Shown one piece after another: positions 27,581 to 38,435 of a DNA stretch of 64,000 bases (the stretch's first letter is position 1; every line of letters starts with the position of its first letter). The stretch spans positions 372,001 through 436,000 of the forward strand of contig NZ_CZQA01000008.1 in the NCBI RefSeq assembly GCF_001458735.1. The letters run 5' to 3'. The position numbers and the translations under genes were made by a program. This DNA is from Candidatus Nitrospira nitrosa (GTDB taxonomy: Bacteria; Nitrospirota; Nitrospiria; Nitrospirales; Nitrospiraceae). The notes below the pieces were generated by a model. The model saw only the letters and a list, made by a program, of their open reading frames with translations, ran no database searches and was not told the DNA's origin.

Positions 27581-29320
27581 CTACTTCGAGCCACTGATGA
27601 GACGAAGCGTCGCCTTGAGAACCGGCGAGGACTTTGGTTCTAGAAAAAGCAACTGGAAGGTACGGTGAACCATCGTCGTATGTCGTTGATGGTCGGCATG
27701 GAAGGACGCGACGGCTTTTTTACGATCCTCGGCCCTATACCCCATCCGAACCGCGCATTTTTCTAATTCGATATCATCATCCGGCAACGCATGAGTCTGG
27801 AGATCGTGAACCATCTGCAATTTGTGCTCAACATCTCGCAGGAATATATAGGCATCGGTCAGTTCATCGCGTTCTCGAATCGAGAGCAGTTTCTTGTTGG
27901 CCATTCGCTTGAGGGAACCGAGCGTACTCCGATCCAGCAGCGTTGGCACCTTCCGCCCAGCCAGAACCTGGATGGTCTGCACGAAAAATTCGATCTCCCG
28001 AATGCCTCCGATTCCCAACTTCACATTGCGTTGTGTATGGCCACGGTCGGTCATTTTGGCGTCGATCATGTCTTTGACTGCGCGAACGTCCTGCACAATC
28101 GCAATCGCTGTGTCTCGATCCAACTTTCCTCCGGTACCGAGCACAAACGGCTTGATCAAGCGGAGGAACGCGAGGCCCACCTCGTGCGAGCCGGCAACCG
28201 GCCAGGCTTTGAGCAACGCCAATCGCTCCCAGGCTTGTCCCCTCGCCGCGTAATACCGCTGATATTCCTCCAGGGAGCGGGCTAATTGCCCCACGGAACC
28301 CTCGGCCCTCAGGCGGAGATCGACCCGAAAGATGTGTCCTTCACGACTTGGTTCAGCCAATACCCTCGTCAACTCGCGGGCGAGGATCTCAAAGTACTCT
28401 TCGTTGGAAATACCGACGCCAGGGGGGGCGGGAGCCCGCCGACCGTTCGGGGCTCTGGTTTCGCCGCCGTGCGCCTCATAGAGGTAGATCAGATCGACAT
28501 CGGAGCTGTAGTTCAACTCATGTCCCCCGAGCTTGCCCATCCCAATGACGGTGAACCCAGTCTCAACCCATCGCCCTTTTCCGGCCTGATGCATCGGCAC
28601 ACCATATTGTTGGCGCAGATCGGCATCGATGATCTCATACGCGGCATGGATCAGCACACAGGCCAGGTCTGACAATGAGGCGGTCGTCTCCGGCACCGTG
28701 GCCCGCTTGAGCAAATCCCGAACGCCGATGCGCAACATTTCCCGCCTTCGAAAACGGCGGAGAGCATCCAGCTTCGTTTCTTTTGCCGCCAGGTGCCCGA
28801 TGCTTTCTCGAAGGGCCCGCTCAAGTTCTTTCCTCGTCGGCACCCGCGAGAGCACGTCTTCTTCAGCCAACCAGTACACCAACATCGGGTCTCGGATAAG
28901 CGTAAAGGCCAACGCATCGCTATTACCGAAAATAGCGCACAGTAGGTCAAGCATGCGCGGCCACGTCCGCAAGTAGTCGAGCAATGACGCACGCGAGACA
29001 CCTCCGAACAGCCGCTCCCAATGATTGAGGGCCTGGTCCGGATCGGCTGTCCGCGAGATGGCCTCCAACATCATCGGCAGAATCTCAGCCAGCCGATTGC
29101 GCTGCAGTGGGTCACCGGCCATCGCCTCGAGATTCTGATCCGCCAGATCAAGATCCCGCAGACCGTAAGCGGATAAGATGGCTCGCACCTGGTCGGCATT
29201 CCGCTTGGTAGCCAGCAACACCGGTGTGGGGTCCGGCGCACGCGACGCGGTCGGTGCTCCCGGTACTTGCGCCTCAGGCCATATTCTTGGGATGCCTGCC
29301 TTCTCAGACTTTCGTTTCAC
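27581..29320 (-). CDS. glnE: Half-length GlnE-like adenylyltransferase/deadenylylase
   Basis: GlnE adenylylates and deadenylylates glutamine synthetase. This 579-residue protein contains one GlnE repeat: an N-terminal helical region, the nucleotidyltransferase core VIGMGKLGGHELNYSSDVDLIYLY near 258-281 (DxD intact), IFRVDLRLRAEGSVGQLARS, the YYAARGQAWERLALLKAWPVAGS block and LGIGGIREIEFFVQTIQVLAG with the GlnD-UR-like helical bundle. Full-length GlnE (~950 residues) has two such repeats, so one half is missing here. The repeat most resembles the N-terminal deadenylylation half. Start GTG near 29320. A Sel1 remnant follows the stop, so a 3' rearrangement is possible. Confidence 0.8.
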   Translation of the reverse strand: MKRKSEKAGIPRIWPEAQVPGAPTASRAPDPTPVLLATKRNADQVRAILSAYGLRDLDLADQNLEAMAGDPLQRNRLAEILPMMLEAISRTADPDQALNHWERLFGGVSRASLLDYLRTWPRMLDLLCAIFGNSDALAFTLIRDPMLVYWLAEEDVLSRVPTRKELERALRESIGHLAAKETKLDALRRFRRREMLRIGVRDLLKRATVPETTASLSDLACVLIHAAYEIIDADLRQQYGVPMHQAGKGRWVETGFTVIGMGKLGGHELNYSSDVDLIYLYEAHGGETRAPNGRRAPAPPGVGISNEEYFEILARELTRVLAEPSREGHIFRVDLRLRAEGSVGQLARSLEEYQRYYAARGQAWERLALLKAWPVAGSHEVGLAFLRLIKPFVLGTGGKLDRDTAIAIVQDVRAVKDMIDAKMTDRGHTQRNVKLGIGGIREIEFFVQTIQVLAGRKVPTLLDRSTLGSLKRMANKKLLSIRERDELTDAYIFLRDVEHKLQMVHDLQTHALPDDDIELEKCAVRMGYRAEDRKKAVASFHADHQRHTTMVHRTFQLLFLEPKSSPVLKATLRLISGSK

Positions 29321-29348
29321 GTTTCACGGTTCCTGGGTCTAGCGCGGC

Positions 29349-29377
29349 ATTATACTGACAGGTTTCTCTACGCACAA
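29349..29377 (-). promoter_or_regulatory. Sigma-70-type promoter of the half-length glnE gene
   Basis: Minus strand: -10 TATAAT (29354-29349), 17-base spacer, -35 TTGTGC (29377-29372; only the TTG matches consensus). The divergent gene starts at 29405. The motif TATACTGAC occurs twice in this short gap (near 29351 and 29394), which may bear on shared control. Confidence 0.5.
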
Positions 29378-29404
29378 TGAACCCATTCAGGTATACTGAC
29401 GTCC

Positions 29405-31684
29405 ATGCCAACCGGCGCACCAGACCGCATCGCACTTCTCAACACGGTCCGTCCGCTCTGCTCTGATGTACCACCCGATATTCTTCAGGATTTCTTCGCC
29501 CGTCTGGATCAAGAATACTTCCAACGGTTCATTCCCCCAACGATTGCCGAACACGTCCGCCTCACGGCCCGACTGACGCCGGAGCACCTGTGCGAAGTGG
29601 TATTTGCCGAACAGCCTGACCAGCGGTGCGTGATCACACTCGTCGCCTATGACTACTTCTCTGAATTCGCAATGATTTGCGGATTGCTCTCAGCCTTTGG
29701 GTTGAACATTGAAGAAGGCGATATCTATACATTTTCAGAAAAAACTGCTCCCTTATCCGCTCGGACAAGTTGGAGCGAGTACGGATCGCGGGTTCGTCCC
29801 AAGGCCACCCCAGGCTTGACCCAGAAGAAGATCGTTGATGTGTTCCGTGTACATCCAGTCCCTGGGGTGGAGTTAGGAGCGGACCAACAACATCAGCTCA
29901 CTGCGGCACTCTCCTCAGTGATCACCCTGCTGGACAAAGGACACTTTGAGGAGGCACGCTTGACCGTGAACCGTCGCCTCGTGGAACAGCTCGGCAAACG
30001 ACGAGGCTCTTTCAGTGGCCTGCTTCATCCCGTGCAGATCACCTTCGACAACAGTCAATCACCAGCGGACACGGTTATGGAGATTCGGTCGGACGATACG
30101 CCGGCCTTCTTGTACGCCTTTGCCAATGCCCTTGCGATGCGGAATGTGTATATCTCCAAAGCGCAGTTTGATGTTGAAAACGGGAAAATTCATGATCGAT
30201 TTTATGTCCGCAATCGCCACGGCCAGAAGCTCACCGATGCGACCGATCAGCAGCAGTTACGTCTTACAGCCGTCCTCATCAAGCAGTTTACCCATGCCCT
30301 CACCTGGGCTCCGGATCCGACCAAGGCGCTAGAAGCCTTCGACCAATTTCTCGATCTGACGGTCCAGCAGACAAAAGGCAAGGCCCAGCAAGAAGCCTTG
30401 GCCTTTTTAAGCGACAAAAAAACCTTTCCGCTGCTTGCCCGCCTGCTCGGCGCCAGCGATTTCCTCTGGGAGGACTTTCTCCGTCGCCAACACAGTAATC
30501 TTTTACCTCTGCTGCAAGACTACCGGGATGCTTCCCTCATCACTCCGAGAGCCACGCTGCGCAAGGAACTGGATCGTCTGGTCAACCGTGCCAAAACCGA
30601 TGCAGATCGGAAAGCCGTGCTGAACAGCTTCAAGGACCGCGAAATGTTTCGTATCGACATGAAGCACATTGTCGAACCGGACACAGCCCTGCCTGATTTC
30701 TCCGCTGCCCTCACGCAGCTGGCCGAAACCATCCTGGATCGAAGCTTAAAGGACTGCCAAGCCAAGCTGAACAAATTGTATGGTCCACCGCGACTGGCCA
30801 ATAAGAAGCCCTGCCCCTTCACCGTCCTCGGCTTGGGAAAATTCGGAGGGAAAGAGCTGGGCTATGCCTCCGACATCGAGGTCTTGTTCGTCTATGGAGA
30901 TACCGGCCGGACCGGCGGGAAACGCCCCATCGACAACAGCGAATACTTTGAACGGCTTGGATACGAGCTCCTCCAATGGATCGAAGCGAAACAAGAAGGC
31001 ATCTTCCATGTGGATGTCCGCCTTCGGCCTCACGGTGGAAAAGGCTCGCTCACGAATCCCTTCGATGAAATCGCCAAGTACTATAGTGACGAGGGGCTTG
31101 CCGCACCGTTTGAACGCCAGTCGTTGATCAAACTGCGCCATGTCGCCGGTGATCCGGATCTCGGGAAACGGGTGGAAATCCATCGCAACCACTATGTCTA
31201 TAGCGGCAAAGCATTGGATCCAACGATCGTTCTCGATGCGCGCCGTCAACAGTTGAAGCAGCTCGTGGAACGAGACACCGTGAACTTGAAGCACAGCCAA
31301 GGCGGGATCGTTGACATTGAGTACGCCATCCAATACCTCCAGATTAAACACGGACAGCGCCTCCCCATCTTGCGGACCCCCAACACCATGCAGGCCCTCG
31401 CAGCGCTTGTCGATTGTGGAATGGTGACCAGACAGGACGGCGAGATGCTGCGCAAGGCCTACTTCTTTATCCGGATGCTCATTGACGGCCTTCGTATGGT
31501 CCGTGGTAACGCCAAGGATCGCGTCCTTCCACCTGTCGATTCGGACGAATTTATCTTCTTGGCCCGCCGCGTCGGCTACACAACTGATGACTGGCAAGCC
31601 GGCGCACGTCACCTTCACACAGACATTGCGCAGCACATGAACCTCACGAAAGAATTCTTCGAGCGGACATTCGGAAAGGTATAA
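29405..31684 (+). CDS. ACT-domain / GlnE-type nucleotidyltransferase fusion
   Basis: The 759-residue protein has two ACT-like segments in its N-terminal half: CVITLVAYDYFSEFAMICGL near 75-94 (running on to about 110) and a second near 224-276 (SDDTPAFLYAFANALAMRNV then KIHDRFYVRNRHGQKL). A GlnE-type half follows, with VLGLGKFGGKELGYASDIEV near 474-493, IFHVDVRLRPHGGKGSLTNP, FERQSLIKLRHVAGDPDLGK and SQGGIVDIEYAIQYLQ. The second catalytic acid is Glu (DIE) where GlnE usually has Asp (DID); the wider nucleotidyltransferase superfamily accepts either. ACT domains bind amino acids, as in GlnD, so a glutamine-sensing regulator acting on glutamine synthetase or PII is a reasonable inference. It is divergent from the half-length glnE. 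Confidence 0.75.
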   Translation: MPTGAPDRIALLNTVRPLCSDVPPDILQDFFARLDQEYFQRFIPPTIAEHVRLTARLTPEHLCEVVFAEQPDQRCVITLVAYDYFSEFAMICGLLSAFGLNIEEGDIYTFSEKTAPLSARTSWSEYGSRVRPKATPGLTQKKIVDVFRVHPVPGVELGADQQHQLTAALSSVITLLDKGHFEEARLTVNRRLVEQLGKRRGSFSGLLHPVQITFDNSQSPADTVMEIRSDDTPAFLYAFANALAMRNVYISKAQFDVENGKIHDRFYVRNRHGQKLTDATDQQQLRLTAVLIKQFTHALTWAPDPTKALEAFDQFLDLTVQQTKGKAQQEALAFLSDKKTFPLLARLLGASDFLWEDFLRRQHSNLLPLLQDYRDASLITPRATLRKELDRLVNRAKTDADRKAVLNSFKDREMFRIDMKHIVEPDTALPDFSAALTQLAETILDRSLKDCQAKLNKLYGPPRLANKKPCPFTVLGLGKFGGKELGYASDIEVLFVYGDTGRTGGKRPIDNSEYFERLGYELLQWIEAKQEGIFHVDVRLRPHGGKGSLTNPFDEIAKYYSDEGLAAPFERQSLIKLRHVAGDPDLGKRVEIHRNHYVYSGKALDPTIVLDARRQQLKQLVERDTVNLKHSQGGIVDIEYAIQYLQIKHGQRLPILRTPNTMQALAALVDCGMVTRQDGEMLRKAYFFIRMLIDGLRMVRGNAKDRVLPPVDSDEFIFLARRVGYTTDDWQAGARHLHTDIAQHMNLTKEFFERTFGKV

Positions 31685-31838
31685 CCCTGTCTACCGGCTG
31701 ATGCTCACTGAGCATTAGTCCCCAACCCACCACATGTTTCGCCTCTCCTGAGGGAATAGCCCCGGCATGTAGCGAGTACGTGGCTCAGAACGGACTTTGA
31801 TCTGTATTCCCCCGCCGTCCTCACCAGTTTTTTGCCAT

Positions 31839-31867
31839 CTGACAAGTTTCCCGTTGACCGCTATACT
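31839..31867 (+). promoter_or_regulatory. Sigma-70-type promoter of the 31892 gene
   Basis: -35 CTGACA (31839-31844), 17-base spacer, -10 TATACT (31862-31867), start codon 25 bases after the -10. The rest of the 207-base gap after the ACT-GlnE gene shows nothing further. Confidence 0.55.
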
Positions 31868-31891
31868 TACAAGAGACAGACCAGCTAGACA

Positions 31892-32368
31892 ATGAAACCT
31901 TTCCTCCTGACCATAATCACGCTCTGTGGCGTAGGCTTGTCCACAACTGTATCTGCCGGTTCACTGATTGGAATTGTATCCAGTCCTGAAGTCATGCCCA
32001 TTGGGAAAGTCCTCGAGAATCCCAGAGCCATCCACATGCAGTTGGTCCAATTGGAAGGCACGGTACGAGACATTGAGAGCCTCAAGCCACACGAACCCTA
32101 CCAGCCCGGCGATCCATGCTTCGGAGCTTATACCTTCAATTTGAATGACCCTACTGGCACCGTGCGTATCGAGGTTCTGGGACATCGCCTCAACTGCGGC
32201 ACTGCGATCGGAGAGGAGCGGCCAGAAGTTCACGACGGCGATCGCGTCCGAGTCGAAGTTCGCATCCAGGCGCCAGGCACCTACATCGACCGGATGATAT
32301 CCCCACTGCCGGTCGAGAAATCCACGCTTCAAGCCATTGCCACCCGAATACGCCGCCTCAAGGAATAA
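31892..32368 (+). CDS. Secreted hypothetical protein, OB-fold-like
   Basis: The 158-residue precursor has a signal peptide (MKPFLLTIITLCGVGLSTTVSAG). The mature part (VLENPRAIHMQLVQLEGTVRDIESL... PCFGAYTFNLNDPTGTVRIEVLGH... VHDGDRVRVEVRIQAPG) has the strand order of small OB-fold nucleic-acid/ligand-binding modules, with two Cys that may pair. I do not recognise a family name. It precedes four lipoprotein genes on the same strand. Confidence 0.65.
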   Translation: MKPFLLTIITLCGVGLSTTVSAGSLIGIVSSPEVMPIGKVLENPRAIHMQLVQLEGTVRDIESLKPHEPYQPGDPCFGAYTFNLNDPTGTVRIEVLGHRLNCGTAIGEERPEVHDGDRVRVEVRIQAPGTYIDRMISPLPVEKSTLQAIATRIRRLKE

Positions 32369-32451
32369 GTCTCCCGATCGCCACACGCAAAACCGTCCAG
32401 GCAGGCATTCTACCAATCACTTTCCAGTACGGGCTTTCCCTTTCTTGCCGA

Positions 32452-32480
32452 TTGACAGGCCTCCTCCGGAGCGGTAGCCT
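32452..32480 (+). promoter_or_regulatory. Sigma-70-type promoter of the lipoprotein cluster
   Basis: -35 TTGACA (32452-32457), 17-base spacer, -10 TAGCCT (32475-32480). It lies 54 bases before the ATG at 32535 and probably drives the run of lipoprotein genes to 34605. Confidence 0.55.
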
Positions 32481-32534
32481 ATTTACCCAGGTGAATCCGA
32501 CTGACCCTACAAGCTGTAGAAAGGGATCCCAGCA

Positions 32535-32927
32535 ATGACATCATCATGGCGCGTTCTATCTCTGTGCCTCTGCCTCGTCGCCGCCGGTTGCGGTGGAAAC
32601 AGGGCTGAGATCAAGGAAGACCGGCTGACCGTTGGTAAGGTACAGGGCGAGATTAAAGTGGGCATGCCTGCCTCCCAGGTTGCGGAACTCTTGGGGAGTC
32701 CGAATATCGTGACGACGGACGAGAAGCGACGCGAGGTCTGGATCTATGACAAGGTGTCGACCGATCGCGTGGATACGTCCAGCTCATCCTTTGCGGGCAT
32801 CATCATTCTCGGCGCGGCATCTCACGACAGCTCCAGTTCACAGCGCCAACGGACGCTCACGATCATTATCAAGTATGACGAAGAGAAGAAAGTTCGCGAT
32901 TTTGCGTACAACTCCACACAGTTCTAG
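32535..32927 (+). CDS. BamE/SmpA-like outer membrane lipoprotein
   Basis: The 130-residue precursor has a lipoprotein signal with lipobox LVAAGC, so Cys19 is the likely lipidated residue. The segment IKVGMPASQVAELLGSPNIVTTDEKRREVWIYD matches the SmpA/OmlA (BamE) pattern of short alpha-beta domains. A Ser-rich loop (DTSSSSFAGII... HDSSSSQRQR) replaces the middle strands. It may assist outer-membrane assembly, but a general lipoprotein role is equally possible. It leads the lipoprotein cluster. Confidence 0.75.
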   Translation: MTSSWRVLSLCLCLVAAGCGGNRAEIKEDRLTVGKVQGEIKVGMPASQVAELLGSPNIVTTDEKRREVWIYDKVSTDRVDTSSSSFAGIIILGAASHDSSSSQRQRTLTIIIKYDEEKKVRDFAYNSTQF

Positions 32928-32967
32928 CACGCGTTGCGGGTCCGGGATTCGGCGAACCCTTGCGACA

Positions 32968-33540
32968 ATGGCCTACCTTGCTCTGTCGAGCTCGTTCATC
33001 GGATGTGTGACACATACACAACAGGATGAACTGTTCCAGCTGAATCCGGAGAGCGCAGCCAACCGAGCCATGCAAACCCGTCTCTTCGAGACCAAGGATG
33101 CAACGGAGCTACTGTCCGCCTCAGCTGCCGTTCTCCAAGACCTGGGGTTCCAGGTCGAGGAAAGCGTACGCGAAGTTGGATTTTTGCGAGCCACGAAAGA
33201 ACGAAGCGCTCGGGAGTACGGCCAGGACATCACCCGCTTTGTCATCTTTCTCCTGAGTACGCCGCTGGTGTTGGTCCAACAGCCTCCGATCGTCATGCCC
33301 GTCGATCTACATCAAAAAATCGCCGCCACGCTGGTTACCCGACCGGTCAATCCAGAAACCACCCGCCAGGAAGTCAGGGTCCTGTTCTACCGAGTCGTGT
33401 GGCAAGGCGGGGGATCATCTGGACAACAGGGCATTCCGCCGGGCGAACAGCGGATGGAAATGCTGCGCGACGCGGTGATGTACCAGGCCTTCTTTGCCAA
33501 ATTGTCAAAAGCCGTGTTTCTGGAACCATTCGCACTCTGA
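32968..33540 (+). CDS. Lipoprotein, paralogous family member 1
   Basis: From ATG 32968 the 190-residue precursor has a short lipoprotein signal (MAYLALSSSFIGC), though a basic n-region is missing, so the real start could be upstream; the frame is open to 32746 but overlaps the previous gene. The mature part contains QTRLFETKDATELLSASAAV then LQDLGFQVEESVREVGFLRA, followed by a hydrophobic stretch (FVIFLLSTPLVLVQQPPIVM) and a C-terminal MYQAFFAKLSKAVFLEPF. The first block and the C-terminal block recur in the next two genes. Function unknown. Confidence 0.7.
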   Translation: MAYLALSSSFIGCVTHTQQDELFQLNPESAANRAMQTRLFETKDATELLSASAAVLQDLGFQVEESVREVGFLRATKERSAREYGQDITRFVIFLLSTPLVLVQQPPIVMPVDLHQKIAATLVTRPVNPETTRQEVRVLFYRVVWQGGGSSGQQGIPPGEQRMEMLRDAVMYQAFFAKLSKAVFLEPFAL

Positions 33541-33553
33541 CCTCGAGGTGATG

Positions 33554-33988
33554 ATGAAACTGGAGAACGTGGGAGGAATTCTTGCCGTCGTCGGTCTTGT
33601 GCTCTTCCATGGCTGCGCGGCCCCGCAACCCACTCCGGACCTCCTGGCCCCGACTGAAGCACAGATGAAGATTCGGAGCGTACAAACTCGGTCCTTCGAT
33701 ATCACGGATCGTCAAATGGCCATGCGTGGCGTCATGGCGGCGTTGCAGGACTTAGGTTTCATCATCGAGAGAGCCAATGAGCCCTTAGGGCTGGTGACGG
33801 CGGCGCGGTTCGCCGAACCAAACTTCTACGATGTCGTCGGCGTGACCGTCACAGTGCGTCAGGAATCCGAAGGGCGCATGCTGATTCGCGCAAACGCGAT
33901 CTACAATAACAAGCCCATCGAAGATCCTAAGGTGTACCAGAATTTCTTCGCCACGCTGGAACGTTCGCTCTTTGTGACCAAGAATTAA
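33554..33988 (+). CDS. Lipoprotein, paralogous family member 2
   Basis: The 144-residue precursor starts at ATG 33554 (ATG 33551 is adjacent; GAGG lies just upstream) with lipobox VLFHGC. The mature protein is the compact form of the family: VQTRSFDITDRQMAMRGVMA then ALQDLGFIIERANEPLGLVTA, VTVTVRQESEGRMLIRANAI and VYQNFFATLERSLFVTKN. The stop TAA shares a base with the next start (TAATG at 33986-33990), so translation is coupled to member 3. Confidence 0.75.
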   Translation: MKLENVGGILAVVGLVLFHGCAAPQPTPDLLAPTEAQMKIRSVQTRSFDITDRQMAMRGVMAALQDLGFIIERANEPLGLVTAARFAEPNFYDVVGVTVTVRQESEGRMLIRANAIYNNKPIEDPKVYQNFFATLERSLFVTKN

Positions 33989-34605
33989 TGGACGTGGTCT
34001 CTCATCAGAGAAGTGTTGAGAAACACCTCCTACCTCTCCACTGGTTGGGCCGGCTGAACTGCTGGCTCCTCGTCCTCCTCTGCCTGTTGTTGCAGGGATG
34101 CCCGACACCCTACGAACTCCGGCATGTCAACCAATGGGACTCACGTGAGCAAATTTGGCGTTCCGAAGAAAGCCAAGTCAAGATTCGCGCCGCACAATCA
34201 CGTGTGTTTGATACCGCGGATCGGCGCAAGATGCTGGCGAGGATCGTGTCCACGCTGCAGGACTTGGATTTCAAAGTGGAAGTGCTTGATGAAGAACTGG
34301 GCCTCGTATCCGGCAAGAAATATGTCGAAAATGAGCAGATTGATGACCTTGATGTGAGCTACCTGTTATATCAACCCGATACATTACTGGTTCTCAACCG
34401 TCATGACCGCACATGGGGTCCGTTCACTCACCGCAGTAATCTTGTCCGCTTGACAGTCACCGCTCGCACGCGCAACGCGTCGCAGCTCGTCGTACGAGCC
34501 AGCGCTCAATTTTATCTTCGGGCCGTCGAGGACCCTGCGCCCTACCAGCAATTCTTCCGCACGCTGGAGCAAGCCATCTTCCTGGAAGGCCACGCCGTAG
34601 AATAG
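33988..34605 (+). CDS. Lipoprotein, paralogous family member 3
   Basis: The 205-residue precursor has a long N-terminal region ending in lipobox LLLQGC. The mature part has IRAAQSRVFDTADRRKMLAR then IVSTLQDLDFKVEVLDEELG, VRLTVTARTRNASQLVVRAS and YQQFFRTLEQAIFLE, the same blocks as members 1 and 2. The insert YLLYQPDTLLVLNRHDRTWG in the middle is specific to this copy. Probably membrane-attached in the periplasm; role unknown. Confidence 0.75.
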   Translation: MDVVSHQRSVEKHLLPLHWLGRLNCWLLVLLCLLLQGCPTPYELRHVNQWDSREQIWRSEESQVKIRAAQSRVFDTADRRKMLARIVSTLQDLDFKVEVLDEELGLVSGKKYVENEQIDDLDVSYLLYQPDTLLVLNRHDRTWGPFTHRSNLVRLTVTARTRNASQLVVRASAQFYLRAVEDPAPYQQFFRTLEQAIFLEGHAVE

Positions 34606-34656
34606 CTCGTGTAGAGTCTCACAACCCCATTCGTTCAACGACACTCCGCCATCGTA

Positions 34657-35514
34657 CTAGGCTGCCATGGTATAGGGTTGGACTATGGCCAGAGTCTCTT
34701 GCAGCTGGGTTCGAGCTTCCGTGAGGAGTGCTGGAAGGTTACTCAGCGCAAACCCTGTCGCGGCGATGGCCTGGGGGCTGGCCGGCAGGGCCGAAGGACG
34801 CCGAGTAGGATCGAGTTCTTCGTAGTCGGCAACGACACCGGCTAGATGAACAACAGATGCCAGCATAATGAATTCACCGGCATCCTTTGGACTGAGTTGA
34901 CATCGGACCGCCTGTTCAATTTGTACAGGCAACCCCCAAGATCGGATGAGTTCCGCTCCAACCTCTGCAAAGTCACAGCCGATATTCGACTGCTCCACTT
35001 CAGCCAACGACGCCTCTAAATACCCCGCTTCAATGAGCGCCGACTGGGCCCGCTGCGGAACGGTCTGGTACAAGACACAGTGGCCGATATCGCGTAAGAG
35101 GCCTGCCAGGTACGATCGTTCATGATTATCAACACCACAGGACTTCGCGATTGTTCGAGCCAGCAGCGCGCAGAAAAGGCTTTTTCTCCAGAACTTGGAT
35201 AGATCCATCAGATGAACCGGAATTCCTGCGAAGGTTTGCCCGATGGTCGTTGTTGCAACGAAGTCGCTGATAACCTGTTTCCCAAGGAGTCGAACTGCGC
35301 CGGTCACGGTGTCGATCTGCCTCAACGGTCCATACGGTGGATTGTTGGCCATACGAAGCAGCCTGACTGCGATGACCGGATCCAACTGAAGCGCCTTGAC
35401 TTGATCTCCTATGGCTGCGTTCGGATCGTCCACCACATCTCGTACACGACAATACACTTCGGACAAGGTCGAAACCGTGGTGCACGCCTGAACCAATTCA
35501 CTCGCCAGTGGCAT
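34657..35514 (-). CDS. HDOD-domain signalling protein (copy A)
   Basis: The 285-residue protein is essentially one HDOD domain: LSEVYCRVRDVVDDPNAAIG, then LQLDPVIAVRLLRMANNPPY, LLGKQVISDFVATTTIG and a degenerate HD core GLLRDIGHCVLYQ where the usual HD pair is altered. HDOD proteins lack phosphodiesterase activity and act as signalling scaffolds, often in motility, biofilm or stress circuits. It is a close paralogue of the gene at 37578 (same length and many identical blocks, such as AQSALIEAGYL and VEQSNIGCDFAEVGAEL). A sigma-28-like promoter precedes it. Confidence 0.9.
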   Translation of the reverse strand: MPLASELVQACTTVSTLSEVYCRVRDVVDDPNAAIGDQVKALQLDPVIAVRLLRMANNPPYGPLRQIDTVTGAVRLLGKQVISDFVATTTIGQTFAGIPVHLMDLSKFWRKSLFCALLARTIAKSCGVDNHERSYLAGLLRDIGHCVLYQTVPQRAQSALIEAGYLEASLAEVEQSNIGCDFAEVGAELIRSWGLPVQIEQAVRCQLSPKDAGEFIMLASVVHLAGVVADYEELDPTRRPSALPASPQAIAATGFALSNLPALLTEARTQLQETLAIVQPYTMAA

Positions 35515-35565
35515 GGTGGAGCCCCTCCTTCTTGCCTGTCGATGCAGACCGGCTCTCCAGCTTCT

Positions 35566-35593
35566 CTATCGGTTAGCAATGGGCAAAACTATC
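35566..35593 (-). promoter_or_regulatory. Sigma-28-like promoter of HDOD copy A
   Basis: Minus strand: GATAGTTT (35593-35586), 12-base spacer, ACCGATAG (35573-35566). Compare TAAAGTTT-N11-GCCGATAA (FliA) and TAAA-N14-16-GCCGATAT (SigD). The start codon is 52 bases downstream. The rest of the 350-base gap to 35864 holds the plus-strand promoter of the next gene and no ORF I can support. Confidence 0.5.
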
Positions 35594-35808
35594 GTGGAGG
35601 CAGGTTACGAGCCTGATGACATTCCGCCGTTACATTGAATTCTAGTCCTGAGGGGCTGAATCGACCATCAGATTGCAGTTCTCTGCACGGGTCGATTCCT
35701 ACGGGAGCGCCGTGACCAGCACACACTGAGATCGCGGTCGAAGCACTAATGGCGACCGCACGTCTCCTTACAGAGTTCCGTTCGTCACCCTTTCCCAATA
35801 CCTCCTTC

Positions 35809-35836
35809 TCAAGCTGGACGGGATTCTCACCGATAC
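35809..35836 (+). promoter_or_regulatory. Sigma-28-like promoter of the HDOD-GAF gene
   Basis: TCAAGCTG (35809-35816), 12-base spacer, ACCGATAC (35829-35836), followed by the ATG at 35865 with GGGGAA as ribosome binding site. Same geometry as the promoters of both neighbouring HDOD genes. Confidence 0.45.
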
Positions 35837-35864
35837 ACTCTCTAGCCTTTATCGGGGAACCCCT

Positions 35865-37442
35865 ATGCCTTCGGCCACTGACTCAACCCTCATCCAGTCG
35901 ATCCGCCCTCGGCTTCATCCAAAACTGAGGCCACTGTTCGACGAATCCAGCCGTTGCCTGCCGATCCTCCAATCCACTTGCCAACAAATCCTCAATGACA
36001 CAAACCAGCAGTCCAGCCTCGATAATCTGGTCCAACTGATCAGCCGGGACCATGGGCTAACCTGCAAAGTCTTGCAAGTGGCCAACAGTATTGCTTACAG
36101 CCCGCAGCAGACCATCGTCGCCATTCCCCACGCCGTGAGCTGGCTTGGACTCGATACCGTTCGTACGCTGGTCGCTGCCGCACATCTGGTCGAACAATTG
36201 AAACATTGGCCGGCTCGCCAGCAGGAACTCCGAACCTTGATTGCCAAATCCCTTGTCGCCGCCACCTACGCCAGTGAGTTCGGAATGGCTCTCAACTACC
36301 CGCAGCCCGGTCAATTATTTACCGCCGCACTCCTGTATTCGATCGGAGACTTAGCCATTGCCTACCAGGATCCAGATTTCTTTGAAGCACTCCAGACGAT
36401 TTCCAGGAAAGTGAAACACCCGGCCGAGCGTATTTCTCGGGAGACCCAGCTCATCGGTGTCCCTCGGATGACCTTGGCGAGAGCCTTGGTCCGATTGTGG
36501 ATGCTACCGGACAACCTCGTGGACCTTTTTGACAGTGCCGGAGAATTGCCGGTTGGGCGTTGGCAGAACCTTCCACAGATGTATCGAGGCCTCGTCCTTG
36601 GTTCGATCCGGCTCGTCGACGCGCTCACGAATTCCGATTCCTCCACGGCTGTTGAAAATTCGAAACAAACACTCCAGCTCGGAAGCGGGCTATCTGCACG
36701 GCGGTTTTCAGATTTGATGAGCCAGGCCATGGACCGAGGTCATCAGCTCACCCGCTCCATGGGGCTGGCGGTCGACTCATTTCACGCCCCACTGGTGACG
36801 CCGAGCGGGAAGAACCTCACTGAATCCACGGCTCCCCAGCTATCAACCAAAACACCCCCCCCTGAGAACCCTATACCCGCTCCGCAGAAAGCCTCACGCA
36901 ACCAGGAGGAGCCATCAGTCCCTATTCGGAACAACCCATTCGAAACACTTCAGGTCTTTCAGACCTCGCTACAGGGTGCGATTGACCTGAACAGCCTCCT
37001 TGGAATGTTTATCCAATCGCTGCACCGCGACGCGGGATTAGGCCGTGTCGGGTTGGCCCTTCTCAACCCAAATGATAGTGATCTTCTGGTCGGAAAGTTG
37101 GCGCTGGGTGTCACTCCTCTGGCACCGTATCTCTCCTCCCTTTCGGGTTCACTCAGCCGAGAACATCCCTTCTTTCTCTCGATTCTTAAACGTGTCGAGC
37201 CACTCCTGGCTCCAAACCTTTCAGACCAGCCGACAGGGTCCCTGAAGCAGGAATTTCGCGATGTTTGGCACCCCACCTCGGCAATTATCGCCCCACTGCG
37301 AGTGGGAGTGAGACCCATCGGCCTCGTCTACTGTGACCAGGGACCGGACCGCCCACCCATGCACCCTCAAGACTACCAGGCCTTCCAGTTGTTCTTTGCT
37401 CAGACGACATTGGGAATGAATCGCTTAGCCGGCATACTCTAG
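35865..37442 (+). CDS. HDOD-GAF signalling protein
   Basis: The 525-residue protein has an N-terminal HDOD domain (about 20-280: LVQLISRDHGLTCKVLQVAN, IPHAVSWLGLDTVRTLVAAA, LYSIGDLAIAYQDP). A Pro/Ser-rich linker (about 310-350, TKTPPPENPIPAPQ) leads to a C-terminal GAF-like domain (about 360-525: LNSLLGMFIQSLHRDAGLGR, SAIIAPLRVGVRPIGLVYCD). The GAF domain could sense a small ligand. No output enzyme is present, so it probably signals by protein contact. It lies between, and is oriented opposite to, the two paralogous single-domain HDOD genes. Confidence 0.85.
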   Translation: MPSATDSTLIQSIRPRLHPKLRPLFDESSRCLPILQSTCQQILNDTNQQSSLDNLVQLISRDHGLTCKVLQVANSIAYSPQQTIVAIPHAVSWLGLDTVRTLVAAAHLVEQLKHWPARQQELRTLIAKSLVAATYASEFGMALNYPQPGQLFTAALLYSIGDLAIAYQDPDFFEALQTISRKVKHPAERISRETQLIGVPRMTLARALVRLWMLPDNLVDLFDSAGELPVGRWQNLPQMYRGLVLGSIRLVDALTNSDSSTAVENSKQTLQLGSGLSARRFSDLMSQAMDRGHQLTRSMGLAVDSFHAPLVTPSGKNLTESTAPQLSTKTPPPENPIPAPQKASRNQEEPSVPIRNNPFETLQVFQTSLQGAIDLNSLLGMFIQSLHRDAGLGRVGLALLNPNDSDLLVGKLALGVTPLAPYLSSLSGSLSREHPFFLSILKRVEPLLAPNLSDQPTGSLKQEFRDVWHPTSAIIAPLRVGVRPIGLVYCDQGPDRPPMHPQDYQAFQLFFAQTTLGMNRLAGIL

Positions 37443-37577
37443 CCTGAGGCTGAAGCCGAAGCAGAGGGCAGGCGGTCGAACGATGGCAAAGACACGTCGC
37501 TACCACCTGACGACTAGGCGACGAACCGCGTGATCGAAGCTGGATTCGGTTCAGTTGTCGGACAGATTTCAGCTCAG

Positions 37578-38435
37578 CTATGCCGCTACGGCCTGCGGAT
37601 AAACCAGTGCGAGCGTCTCGTTCAACTGGGTCTGAGCATCCCTCAGCAGTTCCGGTAGATCGGTCAGCACAAAACCTGTTTCCTTCATGGCCTGCGGGTG
37701 AAACGGCACTTCGGCAGGTCGCCGCTTCGGATCACGCTCCTCATAGTCAACGACCTCCCCGGCCAAATGCACGATGGACGCATGCTGGACATAGTCCCCG
37801 GCCTCGTCCGGGCTCAGTTGATGCCGGATAGCTTGTTCAATCTGTATCGGCATCCCCCAGGATCGGACAAGTTCAGCCCCCACTTCTGCAAAGTCACAGC
37901 CAATGTTTGACTGCTCGACCTCGGCGAGGGAGGCATCCAGATAACCTGCTTCAATGAGTGCGGATTGGGCCCGCTCCGGAGCATATTGGTAGAGCACATA
38001 ATGCCCCAGATCTCTCAGCAGTCCTTCTACAAAGAACCGCTCGCTGTCCTGGATCCCACAGGACTTCGCAATCTTTCCGGCCAGCAGCGCACAGAGCACA
38101 CTTCGATGCCAAAACTTCGAGACATCCATCAGTTGAATCGGCACTCCGGCAAAGGTCTTACCGACCGTCGTCGCTGTGACGAGGTCGATGATGGCCTGTG
38201 TGCCAAGCAGACTGACAGCGCGGGAAATCGTATCGATCTGTTTTGGAAACCCATAGATGGGGCTATTGACGATGCGGAGGAGTCTAGCCGAGATCGCAGG
38301 ATCCAGCTTCAGGGTCTCCGCGAGGTCCTCCATGGTCGAATTGGTGTCGTCAACCACCTCCCGTACGCGGAAGTAGATCTCCGGCAAAGTGAAAATGGAC
38401 GTACAGGACTGCACCAGTTCTTGTGCCGATGGCAT
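37578..38435 (-). CDS. HDOD-domain signalling protein (copy B)
   Basis: The 285-residue single HDOD domain protein is paralogous to the gene at 34657. It has LPEIYFRVREVVDDTNSTME, LKLDPAISARLLRIVNSPIY, LLGTQAIIDLVTATTVGKTF and the degenerate core GLLRDLGHYVLYQ. Blocks KSCG, AQSALIEAGYL, ASLAEVEQSNIGCDFAEVG and RSWGMPIQIEQAIRHQLSP are shared almost word for word with copy A, so the two arose by a duplication. A sigma-28-like promoter at 38497-38524 precedes it. The partner is not known. Confidence 0.9.
   Translation of the reverse strand: MPSAQELVQSCTSIFTLPEIYFRVREVVDDTNSTMEDLAETLKLDPAISARLLRIVNSPIYGFPKQIDTISRAVSLLGTQAIIDLVTATTVGKTFAGVPIQLMDVSKFWHRSVLCALLAGKIAKSCGIQDSERFFVEGLLRDLGHYVLYQYAPERAQSALIEAGYLDASLAEVEQSNIGCDFAEVGAELVRSWGMPIQIEQAIRHQLSPDEAGDYVQHASIVHLAGEVVDYEERDPKRRPAEVPFHPQAMKETGFVLTDLPELLRDAQTQLNETLALVYPQAVAA

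Follow-up and report, generated by a model that had tools for sequence, protein, structure and literature searches.

A BamE-like lipoprotein gene linked to paralogous lipoproteins with a predicted BamC-like fold in Nitrospira and on mobile elements

Four adjacent lipoprotein genes in Candidatus Nitrospira nitrosa

The window, i.e. the whole stretch of 64,000 nucleotides analysed here, derives from the nitrite-oxidising bacterium Candidatus Nitrospira nitrosa (GCF_001458735.1, contig NZ_CZQA01000008.1, positions 372,001-436,000, forward strand) and contains four adjacent + strand genes, here referred to as E, A, B and C, each of which encodes a protein with a signal-like N-terminus and a lipobox. 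The first gene, E (32535..32927), encodes a BamE-like (SmpA/OmlA-type) lipoprotein of 130 aa with the lipobox ..AAGC. It is followed by A (32968..33540), by B (33551..33988), the shortest of the paralogues, and by C (33988..34605), a B-type paralogue with a longer N-terminus, whose start overlaps the stop of B in a TAATG at 33986-33990, as had been predicted. The unit starts at E (32535) rather than at A. For A, the ATG at 32968 is a doubtful start, since it would leave a very short, uncharged signal of 12 residues before the lipobox Cys (zero basic residues) and since relatives have an in-frame ATG further upstream, namely five of seven aligned Nitrospira relatives at the position where the window has ACG (32929) and locus L052 where the window has ATT (32947). 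Translation would begin either at an unusual start codon, possibly within 32929-32947, or at ATG 32968 with its short signal.

Base composition does not support recent acquisition of foreign DNA at this locus (GC 0.540-0.567 across 30000-36599). Downstream, three consecutive genes, which we take to be of the HDOD type, occupy 34657-38435; the outer two (285 aa each, - strand) are paralogues around a 525-aa + strand gene. On the other side, 27581-31684 holds two big divergent genes of 579 aa (-) and 759 aa (+), whose products by eye resemble two adjacent GlnE-type adenylyltransferase-like proteins.

The original prediction had placed three neighbouring paralogous lipoprotein genes on the + strand at A, B and C, and here the open reading frames, BLASTP and profile alignment agree. 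In pairwise BLASTP, B and C gave 75.9 bits (E 1e-22), A and C 42.4 bits (E 7e-10) and A and B 35.0 bits (E 1e-7), the last being confined to residues 10-77 of A. The A family aligned with the B/C family at a probability of 99.7% (hhalign, E 2.4e-26), and after trimming of the signals the profile-profile alignment still reached a score of 121.0 and a probability of 99.4%. Chance likeness through shared signal peptides is ruled out for B and C and for A and C, because their similarity spans the mature domains, and for the families, because these still align after trimming. Failure to align by profile and different folds, the two outcomes named beforehand as speaking against the grouping, were not what we found, as the families align and the models of A and B share a helix-grip fold (see below). 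We therefore regard A, B and C as diverged homologous paralogues, as judged from their sequences.

The predicted sequence features were also recovered. The shared motif reads QTRLFE, QTRSFD and QSRVFD in A, B and C, respectively, and the closing helix with YQ..FF is common to all three, with a looser end in B (LFVT). Of the predicted inserts, the hydrophobic segment of A lies at about residues 84-102 and is modelled as a helix, and the extra loop is present in C. A hydrophobic stretch at the same position is also kept in A proteins from other phyla. Invariant in 11 of 11 diverse members are, in B numbering, Q45 and R47, which lie in the first strand, Q66 and D67, where the first helix ends, and G80, R113, F133 and F141.

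A 56-row tree keeps the C and B proteins of Nitrospira apart, with 8 rows in the C clade (100/98), all of them Nitrospiraceae, and 4 rows in the B clade (100/98). This tree gives no sign of C being a recent copy of B and lends no support to a recent tandem triplication.

A predicted helix-grip domain ranked nearest to BamC by Foldseek

The AlphaFold2 models of B (pLDDT 83.9, 41 sequences) and A (pLDDT 75.0, 23 sequences) each contain a single helix-grip domain. The core of the B model consists of a strand, a helix, four strands and a helix, with nothing beyond this core, and the A model has the same core plus one further short strand and the hydrophobic helix, which is inserted among the strands. 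In Foldseek searches against the PDB, BamC chains occupied ranks 1-12 for the B model (best E 1.8e-6) and ranks 1-10 for the A model (best E 6.1e-4, with just two matches at E ≤ 0.001); in entries of the BAM complex, BamC was identified by its chain letter. The predicted structures of A and B thus share a helix-grip domain that is nearest to BamC by Foldseek.

Other measures were less selective, the helix-grip fold being a common one. VIA-align gave a Z of 10.2 for B against BamC (rmsd 3.4, 101 aligned) and of 9.2 for A (rmsd 4.6, 108 aligned), but Flpp3, AMPK/KA1 domains and Bet v1-type proteins fit both models equally well by this Z. By target-normalised TM-score, BamC (up to 0.54) lies behind AMPK/KA1 domains (up to 0.67), while the query-normalised values for BamC range from 0.31 to 0.45. 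Since Z is tied with unrelated helix-grip proteins and the TM-score falls behind KA1, our claim concerns the fold and not descent from BamC.

A sequence signal points in the same direction. For these comparisons, a BamC profile was built from the 8 of 15 BamC matches that span most of the family profile and was trimmed to the N and C domains. Against these two domains, the B/C family scored 20.1 and 28.2 (maxima of 60 shuffles 18.1 and 19.6; reversed 15.4 and 15.2) and the A family 26.0 and 21.1 (shuffle maxima 18.9 and 17.0; reversed 12.3 and 12.6), while the E family, used as a comparison profile, reached 9.0 and 9.8. The two BamC domains scored 34.8 against each other (probability 79.5%). 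All four scores of A and B/C exceed 60 of 60 column shuffles, column shuffling being a lenient null, but the hhalign probabilities are only 4.6-44.8%, and the aligned stretches cover 21-35 columns around the first helix and the next strand. The sequence similarity of A and B/C to BamC is thus small but above the null in all four comparisons.

The three proteins have in common with BamC (NlpB, PF06804) that they are lipoproteins, and A and B in addition show the helix-grip domain, BamC as the top Foldseek match and the weak profile similarity over the strand/helix core. They differ in several respects. A and B have one such domain, whereas BamC has two, the first of which covers residues 101-212 in E. 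coli according to the excerpts of PMC3359395. After the lipobox Cys, A, B and C have a short linker, which in B runs from Cys22 to the first strand at 46, whereas BamC has a long disordered N-terminal segment that binds BamD. In addition, they are encoded beside a BamE-like gene and are found outside the beta/gamma-proteobacteria, to which BamC is restricted according to the excerpts of PMC3359395 and PMC13067283; elsewhere, these excerpts state, BAM consists of BamA-BamD plus lineage-specific extras. PF06804 (Lipoprotein_18) gave no match for A, B or C at E ≤ 1 and none in the whole genome of Candidatus N. nitrosa at E ≤ 0.001, with a positive E. coli control. We therefore consider A, B and C to be BamC-like in predicted fold but not members of the BamC family, because a PF06804 match, two tandem helix-grip domains and the long N-terminal segment are all missing.

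The view that the proteins belong to no named domain held as far as family searches are concerned: A, B and C have no credible match in Pfam, NCBIfam or PADLOC, none of the 41 B/C members matches any Pfam family at E ≤ 0.01, PADLOC gave no match for the eight proteins tried, and searches of solved structures with B alone or with the B/C profile returned nothing credible. It did not hold for the structure, since the A and B models are similar to the helix-grip domain of BamC.

The BamE-like partner and carriage on chromosomes and mobile elements

E of the window scored 22.6 bits against Pfam BamE (PF04355), just below the cut-off of 23.2, and 12 of 13 E members match this family at E ≤ 0.01 (best 1e-7). 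The E profile retrieved 14 distinct PDB sequences at E ≤ 0.01, all of them BamE/small protein A, with an alignment that runs through the signal, the lipobox, LT..V, GM...V and LG.P; the best E-value to solved BamE, 2.3e-6, is helped by the signal region, and constructs without a signal gave 0.004-0.02. E thus shows sequence similarity to BamE. This likeness, which includes the small size, the lipidation signal and the core LT..V...I.VGM...V...LG.P, covers BamE (SmpA) and OsmE alike, but E differs from both in lying just under the Pfam cut-off, in a Ser/Gly-rich insert, in its linkage to A and B and in being also matched by PHROG 3135. Since the E profile also gives weak matches (E 0.05 and up) to BLIP, a protein with the BamE fold that does not belong to BAM, the BamE fold alone is no proof of BAM binding. 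The genome itself encodes BamA (569 bits) and a YfiO/BamD-type TPR protein (108 bits); PF04355 found no BamE in it at a genome-wide E ≤ 0.001, at which E itself scores too low.

Within Nitrospira, the order E-A-B-C is intact in 26 of the 28 Nitrospira-type loci from the genome collection (L031-L058, one of which is titled Nitrosospira). In one exception, L036, the contig starts at A. In the other, from N. moscoviensis (L051, 5400-6900), no E was found in the locus, A is recognisable from residue 48 only, with a TGA inside the match that may be its own end, and B and C are open; we read this as a decaying locus. A strong B match was found in 20 of the 35 genomes of the genus (including the one studied here), and another has a C-type fragment. 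The module appears dispensable, because 15 of these 35 genomes, some of them incomplete, yielded no full-strength B match (none at all in 14, a fragment in one). The genes flanking the module in the window (glnE-type, HDOD-type and ABC-F-type, named by eye) recur in 14 of 29 loci, the other 15 having different neighbours or short flanks.

Outside the genus, E-A-B occurs without C in a Hydrogenedentes genome (L059), on two Azospirillum brasilense plasmids (L070, L073) and on an 8-kb Acinetobacter baumannii plasmid (L071). A shorter version, in which E precedes just one family member, X, is present on a Vibrio plasmid (L072) as well as in several genomes of Nitrospirota and Pseudomonadota. A match in Psittacicella (L061) was taken as chance, as it falls in an unrelated membrane-protein-like ORF. 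Larger arrangements were seen as well: in L159 (G218, a 2.0-Mb genome; 6569-9458), five family lipoproteins surround one E, two before it, one after it and two on the opposite strand, and L107 (G682) has the same five-member arrangement.

Queried alone, E was found in 14 of 289 genomes of the class of G060, in 9 of 398 of its phylum (four common to the 14) and in 35 of 198 Nitrospirota genomes. These searches yielded 49 loci (L090-L138; 19 plus 30 of the 35 Nitrospirota matches), and Nitrospiraceae, including the genome studied here, account for 25 of them. A family ORF lies directly downstream of E in 45 of the 49 according to the HMM, although in one of these, L135, it is broken into fragments and the E before it contains an internal stop. 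As for the remaining four, L103 ends with its contig, and L094, L095 and L100 have lipoprotein ORFs that are family-like by eye. Hence, wherever there is room to see, the E gene is followed by at least one family lipoprotein, in three cases by eye only. With all loci pooled, which were partly fetched with A/B queries and include some partial copies, 91 of 96 distinct E sequences are linked to a family member. The partnership of E with the family lipoproteins is well supported, and since the genes stay together in different phyla, on phage contigs and on plasmids, a functional link of A, B and C to a BamE-like lipoprotein is supported as well.

Besides chromosomes, phage contigs, plasmids and a conjugation region harbour the module, a mobility that goes beyond the original prediction. 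Nine distinct IMG/VR contigs bear the cassette, or part of it at contig ends; all but the L082/L087 contig were scanned, and head, tail or packaging genes were found on six of the nine. These are portal, head protease/capsid and major tail protein genes on L075, a terminase on L079, baseplate and tail fibre genes on L077, a tail fibre on L078, a portal on L074 and a terminase on L089. L086 has a reverse transcriptase and a weak tail match, and L076, of which one protein was scanned, only a DNA methyltransferase adjoining B. On L075 the cassette is antiparallel to the flanking head and tail genes; an opposite-strand gene between head and tail genes is in the typical place of a moron. Among bacterial loci, E-X lies amid the F-type conjugation genes TraU, TrbC and TraN on L158, with an S26 peptidase on the other side, a relaxase gene lies about 1.6 kb downstream of B on L154, X is followed on L161 by one small ORF and then, at about 0.3 kb, by a phage-type integrase, and L165 has a transposase-like ORF among the neighbours of the cassette. 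No mobile gene was recognised beyond these four in the 12 bacterial loci L154-L165, whose neighbours were mostly judged by eye. On the A. baumannii plasmid, the cassette has an annotated RelE-type pair upstream of it.

The E, A and B proteins of phage contig L079 had no match in 50,697 named phage records. Among PHROG families, phrog_3135, of unknown function, matches phage E (3.7e-11) and E of the window (4.4e-8), and weak matches (E 0.001-0.1) link phrog_902 to phage B, phrog_532 to A and phrog_7047 to B of the window, among others. Cor is a further phage exclusion lipoprotein; we rejected an assignment of one phage B to its family (phrog_1119), as the match covers residues 4-29 only, which correspond to the signal region.

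Possible functions of the module

The reading that we prefer, which to us falls just short of probable and draws on sequence and model comparisons, is that of a dedicated lipoprotein module that would dock on BAM through E and present BamC-like domains. E, A, B and C may all be lipidated and sorted to the outer membrane, since none of them has an Asp after the lipobox Cys; the sorting rule concerned, Asp after Cys, was worked out in E. coli. E would then dock on BamA/BamD in the manner of BamE, the domains of A, B and C would sit beside E as those of BamC do, and the module could add to or adjust beta-barrel protein assembly. Mobile elements would probably benefit from an altered outer surface, through lysogenic conversion or competitor exclusion, and we propose as a working hypothesis that such an altered surface is the most economical reason for mobile carriage. 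In Nitrospira, the module would be kept as a chromosomal complex with the extra paralogue C, possibly as a BAM accessory. The more far-reaching version of this proposal, which we consider speculative and rather unlikely, is that the cassette of phages and conjugative elements mimics the two peripheral BAM lipoproteins, with one BamE-like and one or two BamC-like proteins, docks on the BAM of the host and re-tunes outer membrane protein assembly, e.g. to hide receptors, and that in Nitrospira it has been domesticated as a BAM accessory complex of four lipoproteins.

Among known systems, BamF of the alpha-proteobacteria is comparable as a lineage-specific BAM lipoprotein where BamC is absent, but according to the excerpts of PMC3359395 it shares with BamC a short N-terminal motif alone, with no evidence of a common fold, whereas in A and B it is the folded domain that is predicted to resemble BamC. 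In the literature searched (open-licence PMC, chiefly titles and abstracts), no phage- or plasmid-borne cassette of the BamE/BamC type is reported; in the excerpt of PMC12042878, a BamC antibody is used as a control, which has no bearing on the cassette.

Phage-encoded lipoproteins that act at the outer membrane, such as Llp of T5 and Rtp45 (excerpts of PMC12685063), are the model for a different explanation, namely a surface or superinfection exclusion cassette, whose lipoproteins would bind outer membrane receptors from the periplasm or hinder their assembly and thereby block competing phages or conjugative elements, with BAM not necessarily involved. We regard this explanation as unlikely, albeit with a real chance of being correct. 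It would account for whole or partial carriage on the nine IMG/VR contigs, including the opposite-strand copy between head and tail genes of L075, for the cassette inside an F-type transfer region and on plasmids and for the position of the L078 cassette downstream of an OLD-type nuclease gene, and according to the same excerpts phage exclusion lipoproteins do act on an outer membrane protein from the periplasm. However, Rtp45 is described there as a single protein of about 6 kDa, while the cassette encodes two to four larger proteins, and Llp, Rtp45 and Cor are all single small proteins, to which A, B and C showed no resemblance past the signal-region match with Cor. The lack of PADLOC and named-phage matches noted above and the chromosomal copies kept by Nitrospira also speak against exclusion.

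Slightly less likely still, in our estimate, is an envelope complex that handles a lipid or small ligand, in which START/Bet v1-like helix-grip domains would bind the hydrophobic ligand and E would serve as a BamE-fold scaffold, with no role for BAM. Ligand binding is frequent among helix-grip domains, with lipid-binding ones named in the excerpts of PMC12419801, and the equal Z to Bet v1-type and KA1 domains, the higher TM-score to KA1 and the hydrophobic helix in the A model would all fit. Against this stand the Foldseek E-values, which put BamC first for both models, and the constant pairing with a BamE-like protein. Finally, a toxin-immunity system, with E as a BamE-like immunity protein beside lipid-targeting toxins and A and B as effectors or further immunity proteins, is disfavoured and seems highly improbable to us: rapidly evolving BamE-like immunity proteins do adjoin such toxins, some with a helix-grip toxin domain (excerpts of PMC12419801), but E is no less conserved than its partners (56% mean column identity over 13 diverse sequences, against 52% for A over 23 and 46% for B/C over 41, the latter two mostly Nitrospira), no toxin of that kind was noticed by eye in the gene lists, and A and B are themselves lipoproteins encoded after E.

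Coming back to the proposed BAM-docking module, its combination of a BamC-like domain and a BamE-like lipoprotein, found in Nitrospirota, a Hydrogenedentes genome, Pseudomonadota and phage contigs, would imply that mobile elements can transport accessory modules of the BAM type. The cassette would help to clarify what BamC does and, if such modules alter BAM, would offer phages and plasmids a way to control the host surface, and it gives four Nitrospira envelope genes a testable identity.

Several further genes were observed near the cassette on the phage contigs. Three of them (L077:5429-5893, L078:6-461, L079:3062-3670) encode a small protein that is hydrophobic near its N-terminus and shares an FH..GF-type stretch (by eye); the L077 and L079 versions have no Pfam match. 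The OLD-type gene upstream of the cassette in L078 (813-2618) encodes an ATPase/TOPRIM protein. The reverse transcriptase gene of L086 (12-2257) lies next to a short variable-looking protein, an arrangement that presumably represents a diversity-generating retroelement. Directly upstream of the cassette in L074 (103-786) lies an outer-membrane beta-barrel gene (Pfam OMP_b-brl), the product of which might be a client.
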